The translations under genes and the position numbers were made by a program. Below the pieces are notes generated by a model, which was not told where the DNA came from, did no database searches, and saw only the letters and a list, made by a program, of their open reading frames with translations. Shown in pieces: positions 37,347 to 55,649 of a DNA stretch of 64,000 nt; positions within the stretch are counted from its first letter, which is position 1, and every line of letters begins with the position of its first letter. Origin of the DNA: Nakamurella alba (lineage in GTDB: Bacteria; Actinomycetota; Actinomycetes; Mycobacteriales; Nakamurellaceae); assembly GCF_009707545.1 (NCBI RefSeq), contig NZ_WLYK01000006.1, forward strand, positions 186,001 through 250,000, read 5' to 3'.

Positions 37347-38003
37347 TCAGCCGGAGACTGCGCGCCGCGAGGTGCGGCTCCGACCCCGCACTGCGGCTCC
37401 GGTCATCGACGACACCATCGCCCGGTAGGCATCCAGCGAGCGCTCGCCGTTGGCCAGGTCACCGGTGATCAGGTAGTCGACGATGATCCCGCGCAGGGTG
37501 GCCAGGGTGAGCCGGGAGACGGTGCGGGCGGCGGACTCCTCCATGCCGTCCGCCTCCGCCGCGACCGTGAAGAAGTGCACCCAGCCGTCGACCGCCGTAC
37601 TGGCGAAATCGTCGAACCGGTCGGGCTCCTCGAACCGGCGCGAAGCCATGTGGAAGAACAGCTGCATGTCGCTGATGTGGCCGGCATGCACGTAGTAGTT
37701 CCAGAACCGGCCGATCGCCTCGTCGAGCCCGATCGGCGGCGGCGCACCGAGCAGCGCGATGGTGTCGTTCCGGAGCAACTTCATCACCCGGCCGAGCAGT
37801 TCGTCCCGGCTGCCGAAGTGGTAGATCAGCATCCGACTGGACGTGCCGAGGTCGGCGGCGATCGCACCCAGGGCGAAGCCCTCCGGACCGCGGTCCCGCA
37901 GGATCTGGGTGATGGCCGGCAGCATCTCCGAGGCCTTCGAGTCGGCCTCCAGCGACCGCGGTGAGCGGACGTGCTTCCGCTCCGCTGCCCCCGGTCCGGT
38001 CAT
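37347..38003 (-). CDS. TetR-family regulator, last gene of the Opp/DUF1028 operon
   Basis: 218 residues from the ATG complement of 38001-38003. The N-terminal HTH (GPEGFALGAIAADLGTSSRMLIYHFGSRDELL) is well preserved, and the ligand domain has conserved aromatic stretches (FWNYYVHAGHISDMQLFFHMA). It begins 35 bp after the stop of the ABC ATPase gene and so is likely the distal gene of the operon that starts at 47949. It is the best candidate to bind the two TGTAA-N5-TTACA sites at the operon front. Confidence 0.85.
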   Translation of the reverse strand: MTGPGAAERKHVRSPRSLEADSKASEMLPAITQILRDRGPEGFALGAIAADLGTSSRMLIYHFGSRDELLGRVMKLLRNDTIALLGAPPPIGLDEAIGRFWNYYVHAGHISDMQLFFHMASRRFEEPDRFDDFASTAVDGWVHFFTVAAEADGMEESAARTVSRLTLATLRGIIVDYLITGDLANGERSLDAYRAMVSSMTGAAVRGRSRTSRRAVSG

Positions 38004-38038
38004 GCCGGACAATGTAGCCGTTCCGGCGGCTTCCGGGA

Positions 38039-38968
38039 CTACGCCTGCGTGGTCGTGGTGCATCGGACGCGGTGTCCCGGCGCGATCTCCACCAGGCCGA
38101 TCCCGTGGTCCGTGCAGGCCCCCGGGACCGGGCAGGCCGTGGCACCGGACACGCCGGCCATGTCACGGGCGACCGCGGCCGGGTCCCACCGCACTCGCGG
38201 GTCGATCGGCGGGACCGCATCGATGAGCGCCCGGGTGTAGGGATGCGCCGGCGCGGACAGGATGACCTCGGTCGGGCCGGTCTCCAACAACCGCCCGCGG
38301 TACATGACCAGCACGGTGTCCGCCAACCGCTGCACGCTGGACATGTCGTGGGTGACCATCAGGTAGCCGGTGCCGAACTCGTCCTGCAACCCGGCCAGTG
38401 TCGCGATCAGCCGGCTGCGCACCGTCTGGTCCAGACTGGCGGTCGGCTCGTCCAGCACCACCACGTTCGGCGAGGCCACCAGCGCCCGCGCGACGGCCAC
38501 CCGCTGGGCCTGTCCGCCGGAGAGCTCGCGCGGTCGCCGGTCCAGGAAATCACCGTCCAGCCCGACCTTCTCGAGCACGGTGACGACCGCCGTCTCGGTG
38601 GCGTCCCGGTCCTTCACACCCAGCCGGCGGAGCGGCTCCGCCACCGAGCGGCGCACGCTCCACATCGGGTCCAGCGACTGGTCCGGATGCTGGAACACCA
38701 TCTGCACCCGGGGCCGGTCGCCGATGTCGCCCACGGCCACGGGGGCGGTGAACGTACCGTCCGGCTCCCCGGTCCAGCCGATCGACCCGGCGGTCAGCTG
38801 TTGCAGGCCCGCGACCACCCGCGCGGTCGACGACTTGCCGGACCCGGACTCGCCGACCAACGCAACGGTGCACCCCTCCGGAATGCTCAACGAGACACCC
38901 TGTACGGCATGCACCTTCGTGCGGCCGCTGTAGATGACCGACGCATCGGTCAGGGTCAATGCCCTCAT
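38039..38968 (-). CDS. ABC importer ATP-binding protein, OppF/DppF type
   Basis: 309 residues; ATG complement of 38966-38968 with GGAGG upstream. Walker A GESGSGKSST, Q-loop with VFQHPDQSLDP, signature LSGGQAQR, Walker B VVVLDEPTASLD and switch His (VTHDMSS) are all present. The C-terminal oligopeptide-transporter extension carries conserved Cys (ATACPVPGACTDHG, HRVRCTT). Its start overlaps the stop of the other ATPase gene by 4 bp (ATGA), so the two subunits are translationally coupled and form the heterodimeric motor of the importer. Confidence 0.92.
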   Translation of the reverse strand: MRALTLTDASVIYSGRTKVHAVQGVSLSIPEGCTVALVGESGSGKSSTARVVAGLQQLTAGSIGWTGEPDGTFTAPVAVGDIGDRPRVQMVFQHPDQSLDPMWSVRRSVAEPLRRLGVKDRDATETAVVTVLEKVGLDGDFLDRRPRELSGGQAQRVAVARALVASPNVVVLDEPTASLDQTVRSRLIATLAGLQDEFGTGYLMVTHDMSSVQRLADTVLVMYRGRLLETGPTEVILSAPAHPYTRALIDAVPPIDPRVRWDPAAVARDMAGVSGATACPVPGACTDHGIGLVEIAPGHRVRCTTTTQA

Positions 38969-39762
38969 CCCGCCACCTCCCGCCCGGCCGCCCGGCCCTC
39001 GTGCACGGCCGTCGCGGCAGCCACCAGGTCCTGTGTGTACTGCTGGGTCGGCGCGTGGAAGATGTCGTCCACGCTGCCGGTCTCGACGATCCGGCCCCGG
39101 TACAGCACGACCACCCGGGTGCACATCTGGGCCACCACGCCGAGGTCGTGCGTGATGAACAGGACGCCGCGATTGCTGTCAGAGGTGGTGCGTCGGAACA
39201 GGTCCAGGATCTGCGCCTGCACGGTCACGTCGAGCCCGGTGGTCGGCTCGTCGGCGATCAACAGTTCCGGGTCGGCGGCGATCGCAAGCCCGATCATCAC
39301 CCGTTGGTTCATCCCGCCGGAGAGCTCGTGCGGGTACGACCGGCGCACCCGCTCCGGGTCGTCGATCCCGACCGAGAGCAGCAGTTCCTCGACCTGCGCC
39401 GCCCCGGCCCGCCGCTGCCCGCGGGACCGCAGCAGCCGGATCACCTGGGCGCCGATCCGCATCGTGGGATTCAGCGCGCCACGCGGGTTCTGGAAGACGA
39501 TCGAGATCCGCGGCCGGACCGACGTGCGCCCGGCGGTGAGGTAGGGGTCGCCGGCCAACGTCGCGGCGCCGGCCACCGGCACGATCGCCGGCGGCAGCAG
39601 GCCGGTCAACGCCAGCGAGGTCATCGACTTGCCGGAGCCGGATTCACCGACCAGGCCGACGATCTCGCCGCGGTCGACGGCGAAGGAGACGTCGCGCAGG
39701 ATCTCCCGGCCGCCCGGTCCGTCCAGCGACAGGCCGGTCACCTCGAGCAGGGCGTCGCTCAT
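38965..39762 (-). CDS. ABC importer ATP-binding protein, OppD/DppD type
   Basis: 265 residues from the ATG complement of 39760-39762. Walker A GESGSGKSMT, VFQNPRGALNP at the Q-loop, signature LSGGMNQR, Walker B LLIADEPTTGLD and His switch FITHDLGVV are visible. It is shorter than typical OppD, with the C-terminal Cys-rich extension absent. The gene overlaps the permease gene upstream and the second ATPase gene downstream by 4 bp each. Confidence 0.92.
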   Translation of the reverse strand: MSDALLEVTGLSLDGPGGREILRDVSFAVDRGEIVGLVGESGSGKSMTSLALTGLLPPAIVPVAGAATLAGDPYLTAGRTSVRPRISIVFQNPRGALNPTMRIGAQVIRLLRSRGQRRAGAAQVEELLLSVGIDDPERVRRSYPHELSGGMNQRVMIGLAIAADPELLIADEPTTGLDVTVQAQILDLFRRTTSDSNRGVLFITHDLGVVAQMCTRVVVLYRGRIVETGSVDDIFHAPTQQYTQDLVAAATAVHEGRAAGREVAG

Positions 39763-40619
39763 CGGATACTCCTCTCCAGGCGGTCGCCGACGAGCTGGAA
39801 CGCGGCGGCGGCGAGCAGGATCATCAGCCCGGGGAACAGCGCGGTCCACCAGTTGCCCAGCAACAGGTCTCCCGACCCGACGGCGATCATCTGCCCCCAC
39901 TCCGGGGTGGGCGGCTGGACGCCGACACCGAGGAAGGACAGGCCCGCCAGGTCCAGCACCACCCAGCCGGCGATGAGCGAGGCCTGCACCAGCGGCGCCC
40001 GGAACGCGTTGGGCAGCACGTGCTGCAACGCCACCACCAGCGTCGGGGTGCCACTCACCCGGGCCGCGGCGACGAAATCGCGGGAACGGATCTCCAGCGC
40101 CTGCGCGCGGGTCAGCCGGACGAACTGCGGGATGTAGGCAATGGTGACGCCGATCGCGGCGTTGAGTGCGTTGTTGCCGAGGGAGGCCGCGATGACCAGA
40201 GCCAGCACGAAAGCCGGGAAGGCCATGAGGATGTCGGTGAGTCTCATGACGACCGCGTCGAACCGGCCACCGATGGTGGCGCTGATCGCCCCCACCACCG
40301 AGCCGATCGCCAGGCCGACCAGGGTCACCGCGACCGCGAGCAGCAGGTCGATCTGGATGGCGGCCATGGACCGGACGAAGATGTCCCGGCCGAAGGCGTC
40401 GGTGCCGAACCAGTGGCCCGCCGACGGTGCCTGCAGCACCGTCGACGGCGAGGCGACCGTGCCGTAGCCGGCGACGATCGGCACCACCGTGCCGAGCACG
40501 GCCATGGCACCCAGGATGCCGATGCCGACCACCAGGCCGATGTTGCGCGGGGCTTTCGGCACCATCCGGGCCGGACGGTCCTTGCGCTGCAGGGCGCGTG
40601 GCGTCAGGGTCGAGGTCAT
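39759..40619 (-). CDS. ABC importer permease, OppC/DppC type
   Basis: 286 residues from the ATG complement of 40617-40619. About six membrane segments. The N-terminal extracytoplasmic loop (HWFGTDAFGRDIFVRSM) is the OppC_N signature. The EAA-like loop (EIRSRDFVAAARVSGTPTLVVALQHVLPN) contacts the ATPases, and DLAGLSFLGVGVQPPTPEWG is strongly conserved in the family. Overlaps the OppB-type gene and the OppD-type gene by 4 bp. Confidence 0.93.
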   Translation of the reverse strand: MTSTLTPRALQRKDRPARMVPKAPRNIGLVVGIGILGAMAVLGTVVPIVAGYGTVASPSTVLQAPSAGHWFGTDAFGRDIFVRSMAAIQIDLLLAVAVTLVGLAIGSVVGAISATIGGRFDAVVMRLTDILMAFPAFVLALVIAASLGNNALNAAIGVTIAYIPQFVRLTRAQALEIRSRDFVAAARVSGTPTLVVALQHVLPNAFRAPLVQASLIAGWVVLDLAGLSFLGVGVQPPTPEWGQMIAVGSGDLLLGNWWTALFPGLMILLAAAAFQLVGDRLERSIR

Positions 40620-41677
40620 GCCGCCACCTCCGGGCGACGGGCCGACGGCCGGGTCCGGCGGGCCGCCGGTGCGGTGCGTACCCGCGGATCGACCACGGTG
40701 TAGAGGATGTCGAGCACGGTGTTGAGCAGCACGTAGATGATGCCGACCAGCAGCGCGAAACCGCGCAGGGCGTTCAGGTCGTGCGACTGCAGCGCCTGGT
40801 AGGCGTACTGGCCGATGCCCGGCCAGGAGAAGATCTGCTCGATGATGATGTTGCCGCCGAGCAGGTACCCGGCCACGATGGTGATGCCGGTGAGCACCGG
40901 CAGCAGGGAGTTGCGCAGCCCGTCCCGGAACAGGATCGAGGTGCTGCCGTAGCCGAAGAGCCTTGACGTGCGGGTGAAGTCGGAGTCGAGAGCGCGGATC
41001 GTCGACGACCGGACGTTCTTGATGATCGACGGCGTCACCACCAACCCGAGCACGAGGCACGGCAGCGCGATGGACCGCAGCGCCACCCCGGCCAGTTCCG
41101 GGTCACCGGCCAGCAGCGCGTCGACGACGTAGGAGCCGGTGACCGTGTCCGGGGCGTCGTACCCGCGCGGCAGCCGGCCGACCGGGCTGGGGAACCAGCC
41201 GAGGATGTTGCAGAACAGCAGCACCGCCATCAGGCCGACCCAGAAGGTCGCGGTGGAGGAGGCCAGCAGGGCGAAACCTCTGACCGCGCCGTCGGTCACA
41301 CCGCCCGCCGAGCGAGCGGCCAGGGCGCCGAGCACGATGCCGACGACCAGCGCGATGAGCAGCGCGCCGAGGCTCAGCTCCAGCGAGGCTGGCAGCCGGT
41401 CCAGCAGCTCCTCGGTCACCGACCCCTGGGTACGGATCGACTGCCCGAAGTCGAACTGCACGACCCCGACGAGGTAGTTCCAGAACTGCACGGGCAGGGC
41501 GCGGTCGAGCCCGTACTGCACGCGGAGCGCCTGGATCTGCTCCTCGGTGGCGTACTGACCGGCCTGGGTGCGGGCCGCGTCGCCGGGCAGCAGGTAGGTG
41601 ATCAGGAAGACCACGACCACCACCCCGGCGATGCTGATCAGCGCGAGACCCAGCCGGTGCGCGATGTACCGCAGCAC
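40616..41677 (-). CDS. ABC importer permease, OppB/DppB type
   Basis: 353 residues from a GTG whose complement is 41675-41677; GAGGAGG five to eight bases upstream sets the start. Family features: LRYIAHRLGLALISIAGVVV, LPGDAARTQ, the EAA-like LDSDFTRTSRLFGYGSTSILFRDGLRNS and the closing YLLGGNIIIEQIFSWPGIGQYAYQAL. About six membrane segments. A basic C-terminal tail follows. The 65-bp gap to the upstream solute-binding gene is the largest within the core of the operon. Confidence 0.93.
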   Translation of the reverse strand: MLRYIAHRLGLALISIAGVVVVVFLITYLLPGDAARTQAGQYATEEQIQALRVQYGLDRALPVQFWNYLVGVVQFDFGQSIRTQGSVTEELLDRLPASLELSLGALLIALVVGIVLGALAARSAGGVTDGAVRGFALLASSTATFWVGLMAVLLFCNILGWFPSPVGRLPRGYDAPDTVTGSYVVDALLAGDPELAGVALRSIALPCLVLGLVVTPSIIKNVRSSTIRALDSDFTRTSRLFGYGSTSILFRDGLRNSLLPVLTGITIVAGYLLGGNIIIEQIFSWPGIGQYAYQALQSHDLNALRGFALLVGIIYVLLNTVLDILYTVVDPRVRTAPAARRTRPSARRPEVAA

Positions 41678-41742
41678 GGCGCTCCTCCTCTCGGGCGGTA
41701 CCCCGCAGGTGCCGCCCGGGCGGGCGGCACCTGCGGAGCGGA

Positions 41743-43419
41743 TCACTGGACGGACAGGTACCGGAAGTACGGCAGTGCGTCGTCGGGCTGGGTGATCCCG
41801 CTGACGTTCGGGTTGGACACCACCAGGTAGTTCCGGGCGTACAGGTAGGCCATCGGCGCCTCGTCGATGGCGATCTGCTGCGCCGTCTGCGAGAGCCCGT
41901 CCCGGGTGGCCACGTCGGCCTCGGAGATCGCCTCGGTGAGAGTGCTGTCGATCTCGGCGTTGTCGAACCCGGTGTAGTTCACGAAAGAACCGGAGCTGAG
42001 CAGGAAGAACATCTGGTAGACGGCGTCCTGGCCCCACGAGTACCACTCGCCGAGGAACATCTGCAGCTGCTTCTCACCCAGCTTCTGGGTGTACTCCGAG
42101 CTCTGCAGCTGCTCGACGTTCAGCGTGACACCGCCCTCCTGCAGCGCACTCTGGATGAAGGTGGCGGACTCCACCGAGGTGGGATCGGCGGCATTCACCG
42201 ACAGGGTGAGCGTCAGGTCGGACACGCCGGCCTCGGCCAGCAGCGCCTTCGCCTTCGCCACGTCGGTCGGGTAGGCGACCTTCGTGCCGTCGGGATCCAG
42301 CGAGGAGGCCATCGGGTAGGGCGCCGGGCCGTAGGCGTCGTTCGCGAAGCCCTGCATGACCTCGGTACGCAGCGTGTCGTAGGGCACCAGGTACGAGATC
42401 GCCTGGCGCACCCTGACGTCCTTCAGCACCGGGTCGGCGTTGTTGAAGCCGAGGTAGGCGAGCTGGCTGGCGGAGCTGGCAGTCACCTTGACCGCCGCAT
42501 CGCTCTCGGCCTGCTTGGCCAGCTTCGGGGTGAGCCCCATCGCCAGGTCCAGCTGACCCTGCTGCAGCGCCAGGTACTGCTGATTCGGGTCCGAGACGTT
42601 CTTCACCGTCACGGTTTCCGGCGCCGCCGAGGTGTCGCTCGCGGTGTAGGCCGGATTCTTGGCAAGCACGATCTCCGCGTCACCGGGCCAGCTCTCGACC
42701 ACGTACGGGCCGGATGACACGTTGTTCTTGGAGAAGTACGCGGTGGCCCAGGGGTCGTCCGCGGTCTTGTTCGCCTCGCCCACGGCCTTCGGCAGGATGC
42801 CGAAGATCGGGAAGGACAGGAACTTCTCCATCAGCGGCGCCTCGAACTGCGTGGCGATGGTGAGCGTGGTGTCGTCGACGGCCGTGATGTCCGTCGTCTC
42901 GTCCTCGATGCCGATGTACACCTTGAACGCGTTGGCGTAGCTCTCCGGCGACAGGCTGCGCTGCAGCGTGTACACGACATCCTCGGCGGTGAGCGGGGTC
43001 CCGTCCTGGAACGTCAGCCCCGGCTTGAGCGTGATGGTCAGCAGGGTGCCGGCCGCGTCCCACTCGAGCGACTCGGCGAGCTCGGGCTGGTAGGTCGCAT
43101 CGCCGACCAACAGTCCGTCCTGCTCGGTGTACTCCTGCGACACCAGGGTGCCGTAGATGTTGTTGGTGATCATGAAGCCTGTGTTCGACTTGAAGACGAT
43201 CGGGTCGAGGACGCCGACGGCCCCGTAGCCGATGATGACGTCCTTCGAGGGGGCGGCCCCTCCGGACGAGGCGCCGCTGCCGGCGGCACTCGAGCCGGTC
43301 GACGCCCCGGACGTACCACCGGAGGTCTCGCTGGAGGACGAACAGCCGGCGACGAGCAGGGCGGCCGCGGTGGCGACCGCGACCCCCCTCGCGACCCGGA
43401 CAGCGGTACGGCGGATCAT
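41743..43419 (-). CDS. ABC importer solute-binding lipoprotein, SBP family 5
   Basis: 558 residues from the ATG complement of 43417-43419, 6 nt after AGGAGA; a second ATG two codons earlier overlaps that site. The signal ends LLVAGCSSSS (lipobox) and is followed by a Ser/Gly linker. The DppA/OppA-type domain has the LTITLKPGLTFQDGTPLTAEDVVYTLQRS motif region and the usual YNFSSGPYVV-like core (FSKNNVSSGPYVVESW). It captures a peptide- or opine-like solute outside the membrane for the permeases encoded next to it. Confidence 0.93.
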   Translation of the reverse strand: MIRRTAVRVARGVAVATAAALLVAGCSSSSETSGGTSGASTGSSAAGSGASSGGAAPSKDVIIGYGAVGVLDPIVFKSNTGFMITNNIYGTLVSQEYTEQDGLLVGDATYQPELAESLEWDAAGTLLTITLKPGLTFQDGTPLTAEDVVYTLQRSLSPESYANAFKVYIGIEDETTDITAVDDTTLTIATQFEAPLMEKFLSFPIFGILPKAVGEANKTADDPWATAYFSKNNVSSGPYVVESWPGDAEIVLAKNPAYTASDTSAAPETVTVKNVSDPNQQYLALQQGQLDLAMGLTPKLAKQAESDAAVKVTASSASQLAYLGFNNADPVLKDVRVRQAISYLVPYDTLRTEVMQGFANDAYGPAPYPMASSLDPDGTKVAYPTDVAKAKALLAEAGVSDLTLTLSVNAADPTSVESATFIQSALQEGGVTLNVEQLQSSEYTQKLGEKQLQMFLGEWYSWGQDAVYQMFFLLSSGSFVNYTGFDNAEIDSTLTEAISEADVATRDGLSQTAQQIAIDEAPMAYLYARNYLVVSNPNVSGITQPDDALPYFRYLSVQ

Positions 43420-43507
43420 GGGCATTCTCCTGGGAACGGGCGTGCACGGGACACCCGCGGGCCGGGACGGCCTGCGGGGTAGGGCAACTCACTGCGTGGT
43501 GGTGCGG

Positions 43508-44683
43508 TCAGCCTTCCTGCAGCCGGCGGACGGCCAGTTCCGCGAGGAAGGAGGCGATCTGCGGGACGACCGAGTCGTCGAACCGGACGTCGGCCGAGTG
43601 GTTGGTCGGCAGCACCGAGTACGGCGGCGGGCCGGCCGCGGCGCCGACGAGCACGAAGGCGCCGCCGGTCTGCTGCAGGAACAGCGAGAAGTCCTCCGCG
43701 ATCATCTCCGGGAAGGCCATTGCCCGGTGCTTCTCCGGCCCGAACAGGTCGGCCACCACCTTCTCCACCAGGACCGCCCCGGAGGCGTCGGTGATCGTCG
43801 GCGGCAGGTCGGCCGTGGTCACCGCGTCGACGGTGAGACCGTAGGCGCCGGCGATGGACCGGCTGATGTCGACGATCTGCGCCTCGGTGGACCGGGCCCG
43901 CTCCGCGGTGGTGGCGCGCAGGCTGATCCGCAGCACGGCATCGTCGGGGATGACGTTGCCGGCCGTCCCCGCCACGAGCGATCCGACGGTGGCGACGATC
44001 GGGTCGCCCGGCGAACTGCGTTGGGCCACCAGGGTCTGGATCGCGGTGACCACCAGCGCCGCGGTGGTGACCGGGTCGAGCGCCTGGTGCGGCCGGGCGG
44101 CGTGGCCGCCGCGGCCGTTGATGGTGAGGGTGAAGTTCGAGGTGGCACCCATGACGGCACCCTCCCGGCACTGGAAGGTGCCGGGCTCGCAGTAGGACAG
44201 CACGTGCACGCCGTACGAGGCCACCGGCAGCTCACCGGTGGTGAGCAGCACGCCCTCGTCGATCAGCAGCTGGGCCCCGCCGGCGCCCTCCTCGCCGGGC
44301 TGGAAGACGGCCAGCACCGTGCCGGCCAGTTCGTCACGCCGGCCGGCGAGCTCGTGGACCGCGCCGACCAGCCCGGCCATGTGCAGGTCGTGACCGCAGG
44401 CGTGCATGTTCTCGTTGTCCGAGGCGAACTCGAGATCGCCACGTTCCCGCACCGGCAGTGCGTCCATGTCGGCCCGCAACAGCACCGTCGGACCGGGGCG
44501 GTCACCGCGGATCACCGCAGTGATGGCCGAACTGCTTTCGTAGCAGCGTATCTCCAGCTCGAGGCCGGTCAGCGCAGTGAGCAGTTCCGCCTGCGTGCGG
44601 GGCAGGTCCAGTGCGAGTTCCGGCATGGAGTGCAGCCGTCGGCGCAGCGCGACCAGGTCGGGCGCAGGGACCACCCCGGTCAC
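43508..44683 (-). CDS. M20-family amidohydrolase/metallopeptidase
   Basis: 391 residues from a GTG whose complement is 44681-44683, overlapping the preceding stop by 4 bp (GTGA). Zinc-site motifs of the M20D (hippurate hydrolase/IAA-amino acid hydrolase) branch are clear: LLRADMDALPV, MHACGHDLHMAGLVGA, FQPGEEGAGGAQLL, and NHSADVRFDD. It cleaves N-acyl or carboxy-terminal amide bonds in the cytosol. In this operon it probably acts on the imported solute. Confidence 0.9.
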   Translation of the reverse strand: MTGVVPAPDLVALRRRLHSMPELALDLPRTQAELLTALTGLELEIRCYESSSAITAVIRGDRPGPTVLLRADMDALPVRERGDLEFASDNENMHACGHDLHMAGLVGAVHELAGRRDELAGTVLAVFQPGEEGAGGAQLLIDEGVLLTTGELPVASYGVHVLSYCEPGTFQCREGAVMGATSNFTLTINGRGGHAARPHQALDPVTTAALVVTAIQTLVAQRSSPGDPIVATVGSLVAGTAGNVIPDDAVLRISLRATTAERARSTEAQIVDISRSIAGAYGLTVDAVTTADLPPTITDASGAVLVEKVVADLFGPEKHRAMAFPEMIAEDFSLFLQQTGGAFVLVGAAAGPPPYSVLPTNHSADVRFDDSVVPQIASFLAELAVRRLQEG

Positions 44684-45648
44684 CACGTCTTCATCGCGGC
44701 GCCGAGCCGTCCGATGTCCTCGACCATGGTGTCGACGGAGATCGGCGCCAGGGCGACCTCGCCGCAGCCGGCGGCGCCGAGCTCGGCCATCCGGTGCAGG
44801 CAGCTGTCCAGGTCGCCGCTGATGGTCAACGCGTCGATCCACGAGTCCGGCATGTCCCGGGCCAGCGCCTCGGCGCCGCCCTTGCGCAGCTCGGCCAACT
44901 CCTCGTTGATCCCGATCGCCCCGGTCATCGGCCCCGGCTCCCCGGCCGCCAGGTACATCGCGACCACCGGCCGGGCCTTGAGCCTGGCCTCCTCGACCGT
45001 GTCGGCGAGGCTGAACAGCGCGAACGTCGAGATCGGTGTGTCCGCGCCGCTGCCGGCGGCGGCCATCAGACCGGACTGGGTGCCGACGAACTCCGGGGTG
45101 GAGAATACCGACAGCAGCAGTCCGTCGGCGATCTCACCGGTGAGGGCCGTCATCTTCGGTCCGGTGGCACCAATGTAGACCGGCGCGACCTCGGCCGGCG
45201 GGAACGCCAGCTGCACCTTGTCGAAGGTGAAACCGCCGTACTCACCGGACACCTCGGCCCCGGACAGCAGCAGCCGGACCGACTCGATGTAGCCGCGCAT
45301 GGTGCCCAGCGGCCGCGCGTGACCGATGCCCTGCTGGTCCAGCCAGCTGTTCACCCCGCTGCCCAGGCCGAGCCGGAACCGGCCGGGGTGGGCAGCGCTG
45401 AGGGTGCCGGTCTCCATCGCGGTGAGCGCGGGGTGCCGGACGAAGCAGGAGAGCACGCCGGTCCCGACCTTGAGAGTCTCGGTCGCGCCGAGCACCACGG
45501 CGGCGCCGGAGATCCCGCCGGTGAGGAAGTAGTCCTCCGAGCACCACACGGAGTCGAAGCCGTTCGACTCCAGGGCGCGTGAGACGGTGATCAGCTCGGA
45601 CGGGTGGAAGTTGCTGCCGAGCACGAAACCGACGGCAGGGTGGGTCAT
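44680..45648 (-). CDS. LLM class flavin/F420-dependent oxidoreductase
   Basis: 322 residues from the ATG complement of 45646-45648. A luciferase-like TIM barrel is indicated by GFVLGSNFHPSELITVSRALE, FDSVWCSEDYFLTGG, GRFRLGLGSGVNSWLDQQG and PVYIGATGPKMTALTGEIADG. The family includes FMN-dependent monooxygenases with a flavin reductase and F420-dependent dehydrogenases; no reductase gene is in the operon, which slightly favours F420. It overlaps both neighbours by 4 bp. Confidence 0.87.
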   Translation of the reverse strand: MTHPAVGFVLGSNFHPSELITVSRALESNGFDSVWCSEDYFLTGGISGAAVVLGATETLKVGTGVLSCFVRHPALTAMETGTLSAAHPGRFRLGLGSGVNSWLDQQGIGHARPLGTMRGYIESVRLLLSGAEVSGEYGGFTFDKVQLAFPPAEVAPVYIGATGPKMTALTGEIADGLLLSVFSTPEFVGTQSGLMAAAGSGADTPISTFALFSLADTVEEARLKARPVVAMYLAAGEPGPMTGAIGINEELAELRKGGAEALARDMPDSWIDALTISGDLDSCLHRMAELGAAGCGEVALAPISVDTMVEDIGRLGAAMKTW

Positions 45649-46565
45649 CTGGTGGCCTCTCGGAGGATCTCGTCGGATCCGAGGTCGATGGTGCCGATCT
45701 CGTGGAGTCCGTCCACGAAGCGGGCGAATGCAGGTCGGGTGCGCAGGACGTCGGCGGCGAGGGCGATGCCGTCGGCACGACGGTCGGCCCGCAGCAGCAG
45801 CACCGCCTGCCACAGGGTGGCCTCACGGTCCGCGCCGAGGGTCCGCTGGGCGCCGGCCAGCGCGGCCAGCGCGGCCTCGAGCTCGTCTCCGGTCACCGCA
45901 TCGGAGCCGGTGACCAGGCCGGGCGCGAAGACCGCGCCGAAGAAGATGTCGTAGGCCCGCTTGACGGCCAGGTCCCGGCGCAGTCCGGCCAACGGGTCCA
46001 CCGCGAAGTCCACCCGGAGATCGAGCGACGTCCCGAGCCAGGAGCCGGCCGGCCGCTCCGCCGAGATGATCCGCAGCGCAGCGGACATCGTGCCGCGGGC
46101 GTCGCCGCCGGCGGCCTGTCCCGCGTCGAGCGCACCGAGCAGCCGTTCCGCGAAGTCACCGTCGCCGGTGACCGCGGCCAGGGTGGACGGCAGCACGTCG
46201 TCGGTGGCTAGCATGTTGCCGATCGCGATCGCGCCGTCGCCGACCACCGCACCGCAGGACGGCACGCACTGCCGGCCGGTGAAGTGGGCGACGTTCCCGG
46301 CCGCGTCCATCAGCGCCACCTGTCGGATCTCCCGCGCCTCGTCGACCGCCAGCAGCTTCTCGAGCGCCTCCTGCACCGGCACGCCGGCCTCGATCAGGTC
46401 GAGACCCTGCGGACCGTAGGACACCTCGACGAACGACTGGGTGGCGACCACCCCCACGCCGGGCCGGGTGTGGTCGGCCACCGGGCCCACACCGAAGGCG
46501 TGGGTGGTGGTCGCGATCCCCAGATCTCCGGTCGCCGGGTCGCGGGCGATCACGGTGAAGGTCAT
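45645..46565 (-). CDS. DUF1028 domain protein (Ntn-hydrolase-like)
   Basis: 306 residues from the ATG complement of 46563-46565. The N-terminal 215 residues match DUF1028: TFTVIARDPATGDLGIATTT, VATQSFVEVSYGPQGLDLI, QVALMDAAGNVAHFTGRQC and the GNMLA stretch. A helical C-terminal region (ADREATLWQAVLLLRADRRADG) follows. DUF1028 resembles Ntn hydrolases and is often encoded with M20 peptidases and Opp transporters; its reaction is unknown. It overlaps the LLM and hydrolase genes by 4 bp each. Confidence 0.88.
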   Translation of the reverse strand: MTFTVIARDPATGDLGIATTTHAFGVGPVADHTRPGVGVVATQSFVEVSYGPQGLDLIEAGVPVQEALEKLLAVDEAREIRQVALMDAAGNVAHFTGRQCVPSCGAVVGDGAIAIGNMLATDDVLPSTLAAVTGDGDFAERLLGALDAGQAAGGDARGTMSAALRIISAERPAGSWLGTSLDLRVDFAVDPLAGLRRDLAVKRAYDIFFGAVFAPGLVTGSDAVTGDELEAALAALAGAQRTLGADREATLWQAVLLLRADRRADGIALAADVLRTRPAFARFVDGLHEIGTIDLGSDEILREATR

Positions 46566-47383
46566 GCCGCGGCCTCGCCGGGCTCCGCCGCGTCCAGGTG
46601 CGGCAGCAACAGGGCAAGGGTGCCGGTCGGGTCCTCCAGCGCCGGCAGGTGACCGACACCGGCCATCTCCACGAAGGTCCCGCGGACCGCATCGGCCATC
46701 AGCCGGCCGTGCGCGGGCGTGCAGGTGGCGTCGAACTCGCCGTTGACGATCAGAGCCGGGCAGCGGACCGCCGGCGCCCACCGCGAGGCGTCGGAGGCGA
46801 TGGTCGGACCCCACAGCGCGCGGATGGTGTCCAGCCCGTGCCGGTTGGTCAGATGGTGCACCGTCGCAAGGATGTCGGGTGCCGTGCCGGGTGCCGTCGC
46901 ATCGACGGCCACCTGCTCGAACGCCTTCTCCACCCCCAGGTCCTCCATCATCGCGATCAGCGCAGGGGTCTCGCCCGGCGGCGCCGGGGTGGAGAACAGG
47001 CAGCCGCCGAAGGACGCGAGCCCGGTGACCACCTCGGGCAGTTCACCCGCGAGGCCGACGATGATCGCGCCGCCGAGCGAACCGCCGACCAGGTGCAGTC
47101 GGTCCAGGCCGAGGGCGAGGATGACGTCGCGGTGGTCGGCGACCCAGGCCTCGACCCCGTACTCAACGCTGTCCGAGGACTCCCCGTGGCCGGCGGAATC
47201 CACGGCGTAGCAGACCCTGTCGACCGCGATCTCGCGGATCACGTCGAGCCAGAACTCCTTGCGCAGGTTCGTCGGGTGGACGAACCAGACCGGCGTCTTG
47301 GTGGTCGGCGTCTCCGGCCCGACCACCATCACCGAGATGGTGTTGCCGCTGCCAGAGGCGACGACGGTGCGGTACCGCAGCAT
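46562..47383 (-). CDS. Alpha/beta hydrolase
   Basis: 273 residues from the ATG complement of 47381-47383, which shares one base with the upstream stop (TGATG). The fold is indicated by YAVDSAGHGESSDSV, the nucleophile elbow HLVGGSLGGAII (Ser in GGSLGG), the acid region LIVNGEFDATC and catalytic His in GVGHLPALEDP. It is an esterase, lactonase or C-C hydrolase by family. In this operon it probably processes the imported compound or a product of the LLM enzyme. Confidence 0.87.
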   Translation of the reverse strand: MLRYRTVVASGSGNTISVMVVGPETPTTKTPVWFVHPTNLRKEFWLDVIREIAVDRVCYAVDSAGHGESSDSVEYGVEAWVADHRDVILALGLDRLHLVGGSLGGAIIVGLAGELPEVVTGLASFGGCLFSTPAPPGETPALIAMMEDLGVEKAFEQVAVDATAPGTAPDILATVHHLTNRHGLDTIRALWGPTIASDASRWAPAVRCPALIVNGEFDATCTPAHGRLMADAVRGTFVEMAGVGHLPALEDPTGTLALLLPHLDAAEPGEAAA

Positions 47384-47949
47384 CAGGAGGCGCCGACGGT
47401 GTCGAGGTCCAGCTCGTACGGGACCGGGCCGCTGTAGGTGGTGTGCCCCAGGCCCCGGGCATCGGTGGCCTCGGCGATGGTCTTGCTCGGCGGCACCTCG
47501 TCGCCGTCGGGCGCCGGCGAGCAGTGGAAGTGCCACATCGACCAGGTCGGGTTGCCCTCGCCGTCATTGCGCTTGTAGACCTCGGTCGCCCGGTAGCGGA
47601 GCCGGTGGTGCACGGGCTCCGGCAGGTCGTTCCCGTCCGCGTCACGCAGCTCGATGTGCGGGAAGATCCCCTCGGACACCACGTAACCCATGTCCCCGCT
47701 GACGTCGACCCGCAGCACCTTGTCCTCGGCGAGACCGAAGGTCGAGGTCCTGGCGTAGAACTGCCACAGCTCGTCCAGCTCGTCCACGCCGAAGTACGGG
47801 TGACCGTTCAGGTTGTACATCAGGTAGGTGTCGGTGCCGCTCGGGAACACCGTTCGCATCAGCGGGATGTTGACGTTGTAGTTCGAGTAGAACCACGTGG
47901 TGTGCAGACGCAGCAGTTCGGTCTCGTCCGCCGAGAAGTTCTGGGTCAC
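47383..47949 (-). CDS. NTF2-like (SnoaL-type) protein, first gene of the operon
   Basis: 188 residues from a GTG whose complement is 47947-47949, with GATGGAGG about nine bases upstream; an ATG ten codons earlier overlaps that site. The cone-shaped NTF2 fold is suggested by LLRLHTTWFYSNYNVNIPLM, GVDELDELWQFYARTS, MGYVVSEGIFPHIEL and the RYRATEVYKR/WSMWHFHCSP strands. Such proteins are isomerases, dehydratases, cyclases or ligand binders. The C-terminal tail (PPSKTIAEATDARGLGHTTYSG) is unusual. It is not close to a family of known function. Confidence 0.7.
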   Translation of the reverse strand: MTQNFSADETELLRLHTTWFYSNYNVNIPLMRTVFPSGTDTYLMYNLNGHPYFGVDELDELWQFYARTSTFGLAEDKVLRVDVSGDMGYVVSEGIFPHIELRDADGNDLPEPVHHRLRYRATEVYKRNDGEGNPTWSMWHFHCSPAPDGDEVPPSKTIAEATDARGLGHTTYSGPVPYELDLDTVGAS

Positions 47950-48010
47950 AGCAGTGTTCCTCCATCGGATGATCCGCAACGGCGGCGCTCCGACGCGCCC
48001 GCCTCTTCGG

Positions 48011-48070
48011 TGTAATGAAGTTACAACGCCGTCCCGGCACTCATGGTTTCGTTCTTGTAACGTCCTTACA
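48011..48070 (-). promoter_or_regulatory. Tandem TGTAA-N5-TTACA operators of the Opp/DUF1028 operon
   Basis: Two perfect copies: TGTAATGAAGTTACA at 48011-48025 and TGTAACGTCCTTACA at 48056-48070. Each has 5-bp arms around a 5-bp spacer, and they are 45 bp apart centre to centre, 62-121 bp upstream of the first operon gene. The spacing is about four helical turns, suitable for cooperative binding or looping. The TetR protein at 37347-38003 is the likely ligand-responsive partner. Confidence 0.7.
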
Positions 48071-48090: not shown

Positions 48091-48123
48091 CGAAGGGCCC
48101 GGCCGTGGCGGCCGGGCCCTTCG
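48091..48123 (-). terminator. Hairpin terminator after mftD
   Basis: A perfect 14-bp stem, 48091-48104 with 48110-48123, and a GTGGC loop, 18 bp past the mftD stop. It separates the mycofactocin operon from the promoter of the leftward operon. Confidence 0.85.
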
Positions 48124-48141: not shown

Positions 48142-49368
48142 TCAGACGGGGACGCCCAGCCTGCGGTGGAAGCCGTCGGGGATCTCGACGGTGTCGGGGG
48201 TGAGTTGGTCGATGGATTTCAGGCCGAGCCCGAGGAGGGCGGAGTCGATGCCGCTGCGCAGGATGTCCAGGACGTTCCCGACGCCGGCTTCGCCGTTGGC
48301 GGCCAGGCCCCAGAGGTAGGCACGGCCGATCATCACGGTCCGGGCGCCCAGGGCGAGGGCCTTGACGACGTCGGAGCCGCGGGTGATGCCGCCGTCAAGG
48401 GCGATCTCGAGCTGGTGGCCGACGGCGTCGGCGATAGGCCCGAGGCAGCGGATCGGGGCAGGGGTGCCGTCGAGGTTGTTGCCGCCGTGGTTGGACACGG
48501 AGATGGCGTCGGCGCCGATGTCGACGGCCTGCTTCGCGTCGTCGATCCGGCAGACACCTTTGATCATGAACGGCTTGCCGGAGATCTGTGCCCAGGTGTC
48601 CCGCATCCAGGCGACGTCGTTCCAGCTGGGGGGTGGGGTGGTCATCCACTCGTAGTAGGCGCCAAAGAACGTCGGGCCCTTGGCCTCGCCGGGTTTCGCG
48701 AGGTTGGGTGCGGTGAGGTCGGGGATCTTCCCCGACCTGCCGAACTCGTACAGCCAGCCGGGTTTGGTGATCACCTTGGGCGCCATCCGGATCATGGTGC
48801 GCAGGTCGACCTTCTCCGGGATCTCCGGGCTGCCCCAGTCCCGGCCCATGGAGAACGACCAGTCCAGGGTGGCGATCAACGCCTTCGCGCCGGCGTCATG
48901 GGCGCGTTGCATGCGCTGGATCATGACGTCGCGATCGCCGGTCCAGTACATCTGGAAGAAGGTCCTGTCGTTGGCGGCGGCGACCTCCTCGACCGGTTTC
49001 GAGGCGAAGTTGGACAGGCCCATGATGGTGCCGCGGGAGGCGGCGGCCCGGGCGACGGCGACCTCGCCGTCGGGGTGCACGGCCTGCACCCCGGTGGGGC
49101 TGATGATCACCGGAAGCGAGATGTCCTGCCCGAGGAACCGTGTCGCCATCGACCGGTCGGCCTGGTGGCCGGCCACGTGCGGTGCGAACTCGATCAGCCG
49201 GAACGCGTCCTGGTTCCCGGCCAGCGACTGGCCCCGCTCGGACCCGGCGACCAAAGCGCCGAACACCGGCGCCGGCAAACGCTTGCGGGCCCGCTCCCGC
49301 GCCACCGCGACCGACTCGAACCACGGATTGGGCTTCCACGGGTTCGCCAACCAGGCCGGCCGGTTCAC
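48142..49368 (-). CDS. mftD: Mycofactocin system FMN-dependent dehydrogenase MftD
   Basis: 408 residues from a GTG whose complement is 49366-49368, overlapping mftC by 4 bp (GTGA). It is an alpha-hydroxy-acid-oxidase/lactate-dehydrogenase-type FMN barrel: LPVIISPTGVQAVHPDGEVA, FFQMYWTGDRDVMIQRM, SVSNHGGNNLDGTPAPI and ALDGGITRGSDVVKALALGA. In mycofactocin biosynthesis MftD oxidatively deaminates the cyclised Val-Tyr-derived intermediate (AHDP) to pre-mycofactocin. Location after mftABC confirms the assignment. Confidence 0.95.
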   Translation of the reverse strand: MNRPAWLANPWKPNPWFESVAVARERARKRLPAPVFGALVAGSERGQSLAGNQDAFRLIEFAPHVAGHQADRSMATRFLGQDISLPVIISPTGVQAVHPDGEVAVARAAASRGTIMGLSNFASKPVEEVAAANDRTFFQMYWTGDRDVMIQRMQRAHDAGAKALIATLDWSFSMGRDWGSPEIPEKVDLRTMIRMAPKVITKPGWLYEFGRSGKIPDLTAPNLAKPGEAKGPTFFGAYYEWMTTPPPSWNDVAWMRDTWAQISGKPFMIKGVCRIDDAKQAVDIGADAISVSNHGGNNLDGTPAPIRCLGPIADAVGHQLEIALDGGITRGSDVVKALALGARTVMIGRAYLWGLAANGEAGVGNVLDILRSGIDSALLGLGLKSIDQLTPDTVEIPDGFHRRLGVPV

Positions 49369-50594
49369 CGCCGCACCCCGGAGTCCGCGGGAAGCATGCC
49401 GGCGACCGGGCTCTCGTCGCACATGGAGACCGGCGTGCGGCGGAACAGCGTGAGCATGACCGGACCGTTCCGCAGCGGCTTGCTGTGCGAGTGATCGAGC
49501 GAGGGTTTCGGTGGCAGACCGGGTTCCACCTTCGACAGCGCCAACTCGCCGTAGCCTTTCACACATTCCGGGTCCGGACCGTCCAGCGGCAGACCGGTGA
49601 AGAACTTCGCCGCCATGCACCCGCCCCGGCAGGCATCGAACGCCGAGCACGACGCACACGCACCGCCCGACTGCGGACGGCGCAGCTCGGTGAACAACTC
49701 CGACGTCCGCCACACCCCGGCGAAACCACCCGTGTCGCGGACGTTCCCGGCCAGGAAGTTCTCGTGGATCGCGAACGGGCACGCATACACATCACCCACC
49801 GGGTCGATCAGGCACACCACCCGACCGGCCCCGCACAGGTTCAACCCGGGCAGCGCCTCACCGAATGCCGCCAGGTGGAAGAACGAGTCCCCGGTGAGCA
49901 CGTTCTCCCCGTTGGCGACCAGCCAGTCGTAGAGCTCGCGCTGCTGCGCGGCGGTCGGGTGCAGCTCGTCCCACACGTCCGCACCCCGGCCGGCCGGCCG
50001 CAGCCGGGTCAGCCGCAGCTGCGCGTTGTACCGGTCGGCGATCGCCTTGAACTCGTCCAGCTGGCCGATGTTCTGCCGGGTGCACACCACCGAGATCTTG
50101 AAGTTCACGAACCCGGCGGCGGCCAGGTTCTCCATCGCCCGGATCGCGGTGTCGAACGAACCGCGACCGCGGACGAAATCGTTGACCTCCGCGGTCGCGC
50201 CGTCCAGCGAGATCTGCACGTCCACGTAGTCCGAGGCCGCCAGCCTGCGCGCCACCTGCGGGTTGATCTTCACCCCGTTGGTGGAGAACTTCACCCCCAC
50301 CTTGTGCGCGGTGGCGTAGTCGACCAGCTCCCAGAAGTCCGGCCGCACAGTGGGTTCCCCACCGCCGATGTTCACGTAGAACACCTGCATCCGCTCCAGC
50401 TCGTCGATCACCGCCTTCGCCTCCGCCGTGGACAGCTCCCGCGGATCCCGCCGGCCCGAACTGGACAGGCAGTGCGCACACGCCAGGTTGCAGGCGTAGG
50501 TCAGCTCCCACGTCAGGCAGATCGGCGCATCCAGGCCGCGGGAGAAGTGCTCCACCAGCGGCAGCACCGCGGGCGGTCGTTCGAGGGTGGTCAT
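49365..50594 (-). CDS. mftC: Mycofactocin radical SAM maturase MftC
   Basis: 409 residues from the ATG complement of 50592-50594. Radical SAM motif CNLACAHC with Cys35, Cys39 and Cys42 binding the [4Fe-4S] cluster, GGGEP SAM motif, and a SPASM-type C-terminal domain rich in Cys (LCGAGRVVCLIDPVGDVYAC, GACASCSAFDACRGGC). MftC decarboxylates and cross-links the C-terminal Val-Tyr of MftA. Its start overlaps mftB by 4 bp. The tail beyond about residue 365 is longer than the core domain and His/Pro-rich. Confidence 0.96.
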   Translation of the reverse strand: MTTLERPPAVLPLVEHFSRGLDAPICLTWELTYACNLACAHCLSSSGRRDPRELSTAEAKAVIDELERMQVFYVNIGGGEPTVRPDFWELVDYATAHKVGVKFSTNGVKINPQVARRLAASDYVDVQISLDGATAEVNDFVRGRGSFDTAIRAMENLAAAGFVNFKISVVCTRQNIGQLDEFKAIADRYNAQLRLTRLRPAGRGADVWDELHPTAAQQRELYDWLVANGENVLTGDSFFHLAAFGEALPGLNLCGAGRVVCLIDPVGDVYACPFAIHENFLAGNVRDTGGFAGVWRTSELFTELRRPQSGGACASCSAFDACRGGCMAAKFFTGLPLDGPDPECVKGYGELALSKVEPGLPPKPSLDHSHSKPLRNGPVMLTLFRRTPVSMCDESPVAGMLPADSGVRR

Positions 50595-50875
50595 CGGTGA
50601 CGCTCCCTGATGGTCCGGGTCGCCGTCAACGTCCCCAGGGCCGCTTCGAAGGAGGCCAGCCGACGGGGATCATCGATCCCCGCCGCCACACAGGCCTCCC
50701 GGGCAGACGGGAACCGGGACAGCGACCGCACAACGGTCACCAGCGTCGGGTCCTTCAGGAAGGACAACCGACGGGTGCTGAACGAGTACAACAACGCGCC
50801 GAACGGCTCCGGCCGCACCTCCACGGAGGGATCCAGCTCGTAACCGCGACCGGCGTCGAAGAGGTCAGTAGACAC
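50591..50875 (-). CDS. mftB: Mycofactocin precursor-binding chaperone MftB
   Basis: 94 residues from a GTG whose complement is 50873-50875. A PqqD-like RiPP recognition domain is visible: FDAGRGYELDPSVEVRPEPF, ALLYSFSTRRLSFLKDP and the helical REACVAAGIDDP. It binds MftA and delivers it to MftC. Its first 11 bases overlap the end of mftA, so its translation depends on ribosomes finishing the precursor. The longer frame upstream is mftA read in the wrong phase. Confidence 0.93.
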   Translation of the reverse strand: MSTDLFDAGRGYELDPSVEVRPEPFGALLYSFSTRRLSFLKDPTLVTVVRSLSRFPSAREACVAAGIDDPRRLASFEAALGTLTATRTIRERHR

Positions 50876-50993
50876 CGCACATACCGTCGATCGAGACGTC
50901 CTCGACGAGCAGGTCCTGGACGACCAACTGTGACTCGTCGGTCTCGGTGTCGTTCTGGTCGGTGGCAACGGGGGCGACTGCGGTGTCGGACAT
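50865..50993 (-). CDS. mftA: Mycofactocin precursor peptide MftA
   Basis: 42 residues from the ATG complement of 50991-50993; AGGGGA five bases upstream supports it. The leader is acidic (TDQNDTETDESQLVVQDLLV), and the core ends IDGMCGVY, the canonical MftA C-terminus. The last Val-Tyr pair is decarboxylated and cross-linked by MftC and becomes the redox cofactor. It is the first gene of the leftward operon, has a 54-nt leader if the promoter at 51054-51084 is right, and overlaps mftB by 11 bp. Confidence 0.96.
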   Translation of the reverse strand: MSDTAVAPVATDQNDTETDESQLVVQDLLVEDVSIDGMCGVY

Positions 50994-51053
50994 GGATTCC
51001 CCTGACGTGGGTCCGGATGAGGCCGGGGCCGGGTCGGCGACCGGTTCCTCCGG

Positions 51054-51100
51054 ACCCTAATTGGCACCGGGTGCCGATTGTCAAGGAAGTCTGAGATAAT
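51054..51100. promoter_or_regulatory. Divergent mftA/mftR promoter with near-perfect 19-bp operator
   Basis: ATTGGCACCGGGTGCCGAT at 51060-51078 contains a perfect GGCACC-G-GGTGCC core. For mftA (minus strand) TTGACA lies at 51084-51079 and TAGGGT at 51059-51054, so the palindrome fills the spacer. For mftR a GATAAT -10 lies at 51095-51100 and the palindrome covers its -35 zone. Binding by MftR would block both. Confidence 0.65.
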
Positions 51101-51210
51101 CTGTCGTGGAACGGATGTCGACCCTCACCGGTCCCGTCCGGGATGACGGGACACGACCTGCCCGATCGGTCAGGTCACCCCGTGGGCATCGTCGCCGAAA
51201 GGAGGAGCGC

Positions 51211-51795
51211 ATGGCGGAGACCGGGCGGCCGGCGGTGACCAGCAGGGCCGAGCTGGAACGGATCTGCCTGGTCATGTTCGCCGATCGGGGCTTCGACGTG
51301 ACCTCCGTCGACGAGATCGCCGCGGCGGCGGGGATCGGCCGGCGCACCTTCTTCCGCTACTTCCCGTCGAAGAACGATGTGGTGTGGGGCGATTTCGACG
51401 GACAACTGCAGCAGTTCACCGCCTGGTTCGACCGTTGCCCACCTCAGGTGCCGGTGTCGACGGCGATCCGCGACGCGGTGCTGGACTTCAACACCTTCGA
51501 CGACGCGGCCACCGCATCGCTGCGGATCAGGATGGCGGTGATCCTCGATTCGCCTGCGCTGCAGGCGTACTCGACGTTGCGCTACGCTGCCTGGCGGGCC
51601 GTGATCGCGAACTTCGCCGCCCGGCGGCTCGGCGGGATCGAGCAGGACCTGCGTCCTCGCACGCTCGGCCATGTGGCGTTGGCGGCCTCGATCGCCGCGT
51701 ACGAGCAGTGGCTGGCGGACGGGGACTCGGACCTGTTGCCGCTGCTGCGTGAGTCCCTGGAGACCGTGTGCCCGACGAGTGGGGAGAACGCATGA
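51211..51795 (+). CDS. mftR: Mycofactocin system TetR-type regulator MftR
   Basis: 194 residues from ATG 51211, directly after GGAGGAGCGC. The HTH (FDVTSVDEIAAAAGIGRRTFFRYFPSKNDVVWGDF) is complete, and the FFRYFPSKNDVVWGDF segment is characteristic of MftR. In mycobacteria MftR represses the mft genes and responds to acyl-CoA. It is divergent from mftA across the palindrome at 51060-51078, and overlaps the SDR gene by 4 bp. Confidence 0.92.
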   Translation: MAETGRPAVTSRAELERICLVMFADRGFDVTSVDEIAAAAGIGRRTFFRYFPSKNDVVWGDFDGQLQQFTAWFDRCPPQVPVSTAIRDAVLDFNTFDDAATASLRIRMAVILDSPALQAYSTLRYAAWRAVIANFAARRLGGIEQDLRPRTLGHVALAASIAAYEQWLADGDSDLLPLLRESLETVCPTSGENA

Positions 51796-55294: not shown

Positions 55295-55649
55295 GGGTCG
55301 CTCCTTTGCGATACGGGACAGGTGAACCGGGACGCTGCCACCGTGCGGGCAGCTCCGGCAGTCCGGGATCCGGAACGGTCGGACCGGCCCGCTCCGGATG
55401 GAGGGGACGGACGGGCAACGGTCCCGCCGAAGGAACAGGTCCGCGGGCGACCACCTACCCGATCGGGCAGGTTCCACCCCGCCGCACGCAGCGTTCCTGC
55501 AGCGGGGTGGCGGCGTAGTCTCGGTACCTCGGACACCGGCACGGCGCAGTGGCGGTCCGCCGGATACGGCAGCACCCCGGTCCGGCCGGCCCCGTTCCAC
55601 CACCGGTCACGGCAGGACGACGACGGAGGCGGTCCCGGAGGTGAACAGC
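55295..55649. promoter_or_regulatory. Divergent control region of transporter and alcohol dehydrogenase genes
   Basis: 355 bp without a gene. ACCTACCCGATCGGGCAGGT at 55453-55472 is a 20-bp palindrome with one mismatched pair. Next to it CCACCCCGC (55474-55482) and GCGGGGTGG (55502-55510) form a second 9-bp inverted repeat with a 19-nt loop. These are candidate sites for the MnoR-like response regulator encoded downstream. No convincing -35/-10 pair is visible, as expected for an activator-dependent promoter. Confidence 0.5.

Follow-up and report, generated by a model that had tools for sequence, protein, structure and literature searches.

A 64,000-nucleotide window of the Nakamurella alba genome (contig NZ_WLYK01000006.1, positions 186,001 to 250,000) carries an operon of eleven minus-strand genes at window positions 37347 to 47949. 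The operon encodes an NTF2-like protein, an alpha/beta hydrolase, a DUF1028 protein, an LLM oxidoreductase, an M20D amidohydrolase, an Opp/Dpp-type importer, and a TetR-family regulator. It is real, conserved, and self-regulated and is probably mobile, and the mechanism that we propose for it is moderately supported. We read it, with moderate confidence, as a catabolic operon that was probably acquired horizontally, that is held under its own TetR repressor, and that would combine F420H2-dependent chemistry with amide hydrolysis.

Conservation and control of the operon

Open reading frames and family searches returned all eleven leftward genes with the families given in the original prediction, and codon-scored gene calling gave identical minus-strand genes. 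Scores exceeded Pfam cut-offs for the DUF1028 protein (PF06267, 197.1 bits), LLM (PF00296, 159.9 bits), M20D hydrolase (PF01546, 101.1 bits), substrate-binding protein (PF00496, 260.3 bits), alpha/beta hydrolase (Abhydrolase_6, 56.3 bits), and regulator (TetR_N, 27.4 bits versus a cut-off of 24), and the importer holds PF00528 and PF00005 twice each. Read from the start codons, six of the ten junctions overlap by 1 to 4 bp, as had been claimed for most of them, and a seventh overlaps by 7 bp. This arrangement supports the single-unit layout first proposed.

Two palindromes of the form TGTAA-N5-TTACA precede the operon. They are the only such sites in the 6.05-Mb genome, both within 125 bp before the NTF2-like gene, against 0.15 per genome and 0.0016 per window expected by simple base composition. 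The exact palindrome was present in 11 of 20 upstream stretches scanned (the window, L005 to L013, and a second NTF2 copy in L009). Only its inner part was found in L004 and L031, and none in L014, L015, L016, L018, L019, L020, and L025. A stricter pattern, TGTAATNNNATTACA, sought in eight genomes, gave 24 sites in six of them and none in two metagenome-assembled genomes (MAGs), while its reversed-pattern control gave 0 sites in the eight. All 24 sites remapped onto homologous cluster loci: before NTF2a, between a divergent esterase and NTF2b, at the TetR/hydrolase boundary, and between divergent isoaspartyl-dipeptidase-like and second deaminase genes, with an additional site before the esterase in Rhizohabitans. 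The TetR recognition segment, GTSSRML, was identical in 9 of 9 regulators. These patterns almost certainly mark a local TetR regulon, one and the same across orders; that TetR binds the palindromes, and how far each transcript reaches, we infer from sequence. The end first assigned to the cluster, 48070, is the edge of the outer palindrome (48056 to 48070); the original prediction mentioned neither the two operators nor the mycofactocin cluster that lies upstream.

The operon is rare close to its host. The NTF2-like gene was found in none of 16 congeners, in 2 of 101 relatives (including N. alba itself), and, at the level of the order, in 6 of 298 genomes (again including the host, and with one very weak match); the Prauserella locus (L028) belongs to the host's order. 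One scan of genome contigs with the NTF2 alignment, with gene presence called at fixed thresholds, returned 33 loci, only 23 of which exceed 15 kb, so that counts of neighboring genes are lower bounds. DUF1028 was present at 23 of the 33 loci, the alpha/beta hydrolase at 19, the Mer-like LLM at 19, and all three at 14, alongside the substrate-binding protein at 6, an orthologue-level M20 hydrolase at 7, and TetR at 8. The full set with Opp importer, M20D, and TetR occurred at six loci, in Jiangella (L006, L007, and L010), a Nocardioidaceae MAG (L009), Rhizohabitans (L012), and Microbacterium (L013), and contig-limited pieces of the cluster in L015 and L016. The four core genes without the importer were found in Pseudonocardia, Amycolatopsis, Tetrasphaera, and Desertimonas; at the Haloechinothrix and Prauserella loci, DUF1028 and the alpha/beta hydrolase occur with no LLM recognized. 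Gene-pair distance matrices correlated (r = 0.69 to 1.00; permutation P ≤ 0.0085; shared species descent uncontrolled). The neighborhood search, which the original prediction had named as a possible refutation, thus bears it out: the genes stay together in relatives, and the unit, as far as sequence comparison can tell, is conserved across several actinobacterial orders. Since it is rare among close relatives yet conserved in distant orders, horizontal acquisition is suggested.

Core genes also occur, as distant NTF2 matches from a search for plasmid copies annotated with a substrate, on two plasmids, of Embleya and Mycobacterium branderi; neither reveals one. In M. branderi, some 4 kb separate a Mer-like LLM (37.5%) from the remaining three core genes. 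DUF1028 by itself turns up on many plasmids (296 records) and is hence not diagnostic; in the host genome (29 contigs), the DUF1028 protein matches a single place. As a separate observation, a Frankiales MAG (L015, 1780 to 4964) has three NTF2-like paralogues in 3.2 kb, with a reversed DUF1028 between the second and third.

Predicted chemistry and its alternatives

Under the proposed mechanism, TetR would stay on the palindromes unless released by the substrate or a product, and the importer would take up a small compound that contains an amide or amino acid. From this compound, the M20D hydrolase would remove an amino-acid or acyl part, and the LLM would pass a hydride from F420H2, regenerated by glucose-6-phosphate dehydrogenase, to a ring or double bond. 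Amide or ester bonds might next be opened by the DUF1028 protein, as an N-terminal-threonine hydrolase, and by the alpha/beta hydrolase; the NTF2-like protein might serve as isomerase, dehydratase, or partner in binding.

The LLM is likely an F420H2-dependent hydride transferase. Its six best solved relatives are F420-dependent methylenetetrahydromethanopterin reductases (Mer; including 1z69, 8qpl, and 8qq8), as are its nearest family models. Mer itself was rejected as an assignment (TIGR03555, 138.2 bits versus a cut-off of 348.7). The catalytic Glu6 of Mer (a role described in PMC11094777) appears absent: ungapped extrapolation beyond the alignment start puts a residue other than Glu there in all 15 LLM sequences whose N-terminus is complete (two more are cut). 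F420-dependent glucose-6-phosphate dehydrogenase (FGD; cut-off, 420 bits) was found within the cluster at L027 (535.8 bits) and L025 (523.6 bits), 76 bp beyond TetR in Microbacterium (451.5 bits), and as a copy cut by the contig end at L026 (330 bits, under the cut-off); the genome of N. alba has two above the cut-off. CofD exceeded its cut-off in all 14 genomes tested, which, like the FGD neighbors, favors use of F420 indirectly.

The DUF1028 protein combines family membership with a modeled Ntn fold. Of the 21 aligned sequences, 3 are cut at the N-terminus, and the other 18 all have Thr2; model residue 2 falls on chain residue 1 of proteasome or HslV in 20 of the 50 entries listed, the fold comparison covering Foldseek's best chains; by this position, Thr2 is predicted to be the N-terminal nucleophile. 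The M20D protein scored 253.9 bits for TIGR01891 (cut-off, 153.75), and its nearest solved structures are indole-3-acetic acid (IAA)-amino-acid hydrolase, YxeP, and N-acyl-glutamine aminoacylase. For the alpha/beta hydrolase, PcaD was rejected (61.9 versus 255.85 bits). At E ≤ 0.001, neither Pfam nor NCBIfam gave a match for the NTF2-like protein, and its profile matched none of the solved-structure sequences searched; its model (predicted local distance difference test score, 93) has an NTF2/SnoaL fold that matches solved NTF2-like proteins.

The Opp/Dpp (peptide/nickel) importer set is complete and in order (SBP_bac_5, two BPD_transp_1, and two ABC_tran, with PF08352 in one ATPase). No NCBIfam model listed for the substrate-binding protein (10 models), permease B (13), or permease C (20) reached its cut-off, nor did any of the best 25 of 183 and best 25 of 190 models for the ATPases. 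Import of opines or staphylopine was rejected, as Cnt models scored far under their cut-offs (CntA, 45 versus 800 bits). The hint of opines in the original prediction is therefore weak. Import followed by amide hydrolysis, also put forward at the outset, agrees with the peptide-type importer, the M20D relatives among N-acyl- and IAA-amino-acid hydrolases, and the Ntn-type DUF1028 protein.

Evidence on the substrate comes mainly from other carriers. In Jiangella, genes behind the same operators encode two deaminase-type and two allantoinase/dihydroorotase-type amidohydrolases, an isoaspartyl-dipeptidase-like protein (which reaches no NCBIfam cut-off among the matches listed), MmgE/PrpD, and an N-carbamoyl (hydantoinase/carbamoylase-family) amidase (TIGR01879, 374.3 versus 204 bits). 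The last also scored 405 versus 399 bits for the allantoate-amidohydrolase subfamily model; a phosphoribosyltransferase match was marginal (24.9 bits, under the 26.3 cut-off). Core loci of Pseudonocardia, Haloechinothrix, and Tetrasphaera adjoin molybdenum (Mo) hydroxylase subunits, HyuA, a thiohydantoin-desulfurase relative, or PucR in varied combinations (the L022 and L027 representatives were scanned, and the others were assigned by sequence cluster). Because of these amidases, deaminases, and neighbors, a ring with ureide or amide bonds is suggested. An N heterocycle of the cyclic-ureide or nucleobase type, or a conjugate thereof, is the likeliest substrate class, a tentative assignment that falls just short of an even chance. 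Since the window's operon has no cyclic-amidase or deaminase genes, its own compound may be a simpler or conjugated member of that class. The fullest form of this idea, an aerobic pathway in which an imported N heterocycle would be reduced by Mer-like F420H2 chemistry and then opened by the DUF1028 protein and the alpha/beta hydrolase, is speculative, and we consider it doubtful.

Two observations concern these neighborhoods in their own right. CoxL/CoxS-type Mo hydroxylase, XdhC, MadB/CoxE-like maturation proteins, and HyuA or PucR, in varied combinations, are encoded beside core genes at L022 (5813 to 15755), L027 (528 to 8892), and L025 (2542 to 7137), where a second, Mo-dependent version of the pathway perhaps exists. 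Next to the Jiangella regulon, L092 (3898 to 7308) encodes a large protein resembling IorA, with POR and DUF6537 domains as scanned in its L011 counterpart.

Several results weigh against the catabolic scheme and its substrate class. The Jiangella deaminases and cyclic amidases fall under NCBIfam equivalog cut-offs among the matches listed, and such genes lie outside the window's operon. Elsewhere in the N. alba genome, three N-carbamoyl-amidase-family genes scored above the cut-off, that family being the only one sought there. Ten of the 33 NTF2 loci lack DUF1028 (L005, L008, L011, L016, L017, L024, and L032 to L035), three of them (L005, L008, and L011) being second NTF2 copies within the same Jiangella clusters. 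CofG exceeded its cut-off in only 17 of 21 carriers, with no match in Jiangella endophytica, J. muralis, and Desertimonas and a weak one in Tetrasphaera, which clashes with the CofD result. The importer class also serves peptides, opines, and metals. Finally, the M. branderi core locus has a second LLM, annotated as flavin dependent, together with a flavin reductase and RibBA, and this one relative probably pairs the core with oxidative chemistry.

That locus bears on the oxidative route of the original prediction, taken here in a Rut-like form: the LLM would act as a flavin monooxygenase, using O2 to cleave a ring, and the hydrolase would resemble RutD. The Rut pyrimidine pathway has an LLM enzyme, an alpha/beta hydrolase, and amide hydrolysis of an N-heterocycle; the window's operon differs from it in having an ATP-binding cassette importer. 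Besides M. branderi, such a route is favored by Amycolatopsis (L020), where a gene resembling RutA (342 bits; cut-off, 498) lies some 8 kb away from the core, and by a weak match of the window's hydrolase to RutD (TIGR03611, 24.4 bits), which falls short of the 238.5 cut-off for assignment. However, RutA (TIGR03612) is absent among the 23 families that match the window's LLM at E ≤ 0.001, the nearest being F420-dependent Mer; the eleven genes include no flavin reductase, FGD neighbors occur in four lineages, and the M. branderi locus holds a Mer-like LLM too. Oxidative ring or chain cleavage is unsupported as stated, and we regard a Rut-like pathway as unlikely. The M. branderi plasmid (L093, 8770 to 21225) is also notable for carrying a gene of cofactor supply within what is probably a catabolic cluster, beside the NTF2, hydrolase, and DUF1028 genes.

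Scavenging of peptides or amino acids has an equally low probability. Here, a modified peptide, dehydroamino acid, diketopiperazine, or N-acyl amino acid would be imported, the LLM would reduce a C=C bond, as LxmJ does on didehydroalanine, and the M20D and DUF1028 proteins would cut amides. The peptide-type importer and the N-acyl-amino-acid hydrolases nearest to M20D are consistent with this, and an F420H2-dependent luciferase-like hydride transferase that reduces didehydroalanine is described in PMC8498797. A beta-lactamase-family esterase fits as well: it follows the same operator in Rhizohabitans, and in Jiangella and the Nocardioidaceae MAG it diverges from a region that bears the operator. 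However, the allantoinase-like, deaminase, and N-carbamoyl-amidase genes of Jiangella fit cyclic ureides better.

Gene layout and the adjoining mycofactocin cluster

Coordinates are given in the table. The NTF2-like/hydrolase genes overlap by 1 bp, the hydrolase/DUF1028, DUF1028/LLM, permease B/permease C, permease C/ATPase D, and ATPase D/ATPase F genes by 4 bp each, and the LLM/M20D genes by 7 bp (M20D start, GTG 44686). Gaps of 82 bp (M20D/substrate-binding protein), 65 bp (substrate-binding protein/permease B, GTG 41677), and 35 bp (ATPase F/TetR) separate the others; an upstream ATG at 38063 for TetR would give a 25-bp overlap. The starts used were GTG 47949 (NTF2-like), ATG 47383 (hydrolase), ATG 40619 (permease C), and ATG 38003 (TetR). 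Family-search references began off the true start for the hydrolase (47386) and permease B (41680), both one codon upstream, M20D (44710, eight upstream), permease C (40613, two codons inside), and TetR (38063, the alternative ATG), with an effect on scores that should be small. Core-gene strands are from codon-scored calling; cruder calling was kept only for cluster labels of noncore genes. The 2-kb blocks of the operon have a GC fraction of 0.687 to 0.718, unremarkable within the window, and a promoter and terminator consensus scan of the region found none.

Table. Features of the operon and its upstream region (window positions)
Feature	Position	Strand	Basis
NTF2/SnoaL-like protein, 188 aa, GTG start	47383..47949	-	predicted fold
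Alpha/beta hydrolase, invariant Ser102, His245	46562..47383	-	Abhydrolase_6
DUF1028 protein, predicted N-terminal-Thr Ntn hydrolase	45645..46565	-	PF06267, fold
Mer-like LLM oxidoreductase, predicted F420H2-dependent	44680..45648	-	PF00296, solved relatives
M20D amidohydrolase	43508..44686	-	TIGR01891 above cut-off
SBP_bac_5 substrate-binding lipoprotein	41743..43425	-	PF00496; lipobox by inspection
Opp/Dpp-type permease B, GTG start	40616..41677	-	PF00528
Opp/Dpp-type permease C	39759..40619	-	PF00528
Opp/Dpp-type ATPase D	38965..39762	-	PF00005
Opp/Dpp-type ATPase F, oligo_HPY tail	38039..38968	-	PF00005
TetR-family regulator, predicted binder of both operators	37347..38003	-	TetR_N
Operator 1, TGTAAGGACGTTACA	48056..48070		palindrome TGTAA-N5-TTACA
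Operator 2, TGTAACTTCATTACA	48011..48025		palindrome TGTAA-N5-TTACA
Hairpin, 15-bp stem, between mftD and operon	48091..48123	-	-34.8 kcal/mol, z -5.2

A mycofactocin cluster lies directly upstream (48142 to 54776). Its minus strand encodes mftD, mftC, and mftB, and its plus strand mftR, a mycofactocin-coupled short-chain dehydrogenase/reductase, mftF, and mftE, all above cut-offs. The intervening hairpin is a possible terminator of the mycofactocin transcript; a terminator search found no T-run there. Peptide cleavage occurs in mycofactocin maturation, and 192 bp separate the operon from mftD, which lies upstream in the same orientation, but a role for the operon in that system, serving mycofactocin or its side products, is very improbable: mftD, mftC, mftF, and mftE were found at 0 of the 33 related loci at the threshold used, 3 of 16 congeners have clear mftD orthologues (67 to 69%) with the operon absent beside all three, and the strong hairpin and private operators separate mftD from the operon. 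Membership was rejected on the first two counts, and because of the first the adjacency looks incidental. An alcohol-dehydrogenase-like gene follows mftD in two of the three congeners. Beside the mft genes of the window (55398 to 58255), we also observed an ErcA-like iron alcohol dehydrogenase (475 bits; cut-off, 550), followed by a MadS-family sensor kinase (525 versus 500 bits).

Relation to known systems

Each part of the operon is of a known kind, and the combination was found described nowhere in the PubMed Central (PMC) literature searched (5.39 million papers), in line with the original prediction, which likewise named no described pathway for the combined gene set. In that literature, we found no paper naming DUF1028, or mycofactocin together with DUF1028; none on F420-dependent catabolic hydride transfer with ring cleavage; and none on a Jiangella oligopeptide/F420 link or F420H2-dependent hydantoin chemistry. 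For luciferase-like F420 enzymes in purine degradation, one SAR202 paper came up, and for the family and structure identifiers of DUF1028, PMC9140057 and a chemistry paper, PMC2905958. Passages of PMC8498797 describe F420H2-dependent reduction of picrate by Fht in Rhodococcus, Nocardia, and Nocardioides, state that F420 roles beyond nitroaromatics are little known in these genera, and list most actinobacterial F420-dependent LLM enzymes with roles unknown. The Fht system likewise draws on F420H2 for hydride transfer by an LLM-class enzyme in catabolism. It is not known to have an Opp importer, DUF1028, M20D, or NTF2-like partner. The hydantoin/ergothioneine (ErtD/ErtE) and allantoin pathways share a cyclic amidohydrolase and an N-carbamoyl amidase with the Jiangella regulon, whereas the Jiangella proteins fall under the Ert and AllB equivalog cut-offs. 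SPO2555 (PDB 2imh) shares the DUF1028 family, Ntn fold, and N-terminal Thr with the window's protein, which is about 75 residues longer (306 versus 231); a passage of PMC9140057 calls SPO2555 uncharacterized, without peer-reviewed data.

For DUF1028, then, a solved structure exists, yet we found no published reaction. If the aerobic N-heterocycle route were true, DUF1028 would, as far as the literature was searched, gain its first function and nucleobase- or ureide-type breakdown its first F420-linked route, one that would have spread as a mobile TetR-controlled module. The module ties an F420-type LLM and DUF1028 to an importer, named hydrolases, FGD in relatives, and a sharply defined operator. 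Both the LLM and the DUF1028 questions therefore become directly testable, with the operator as an induction reporter and the substrate-binding protein for a ligand screen.

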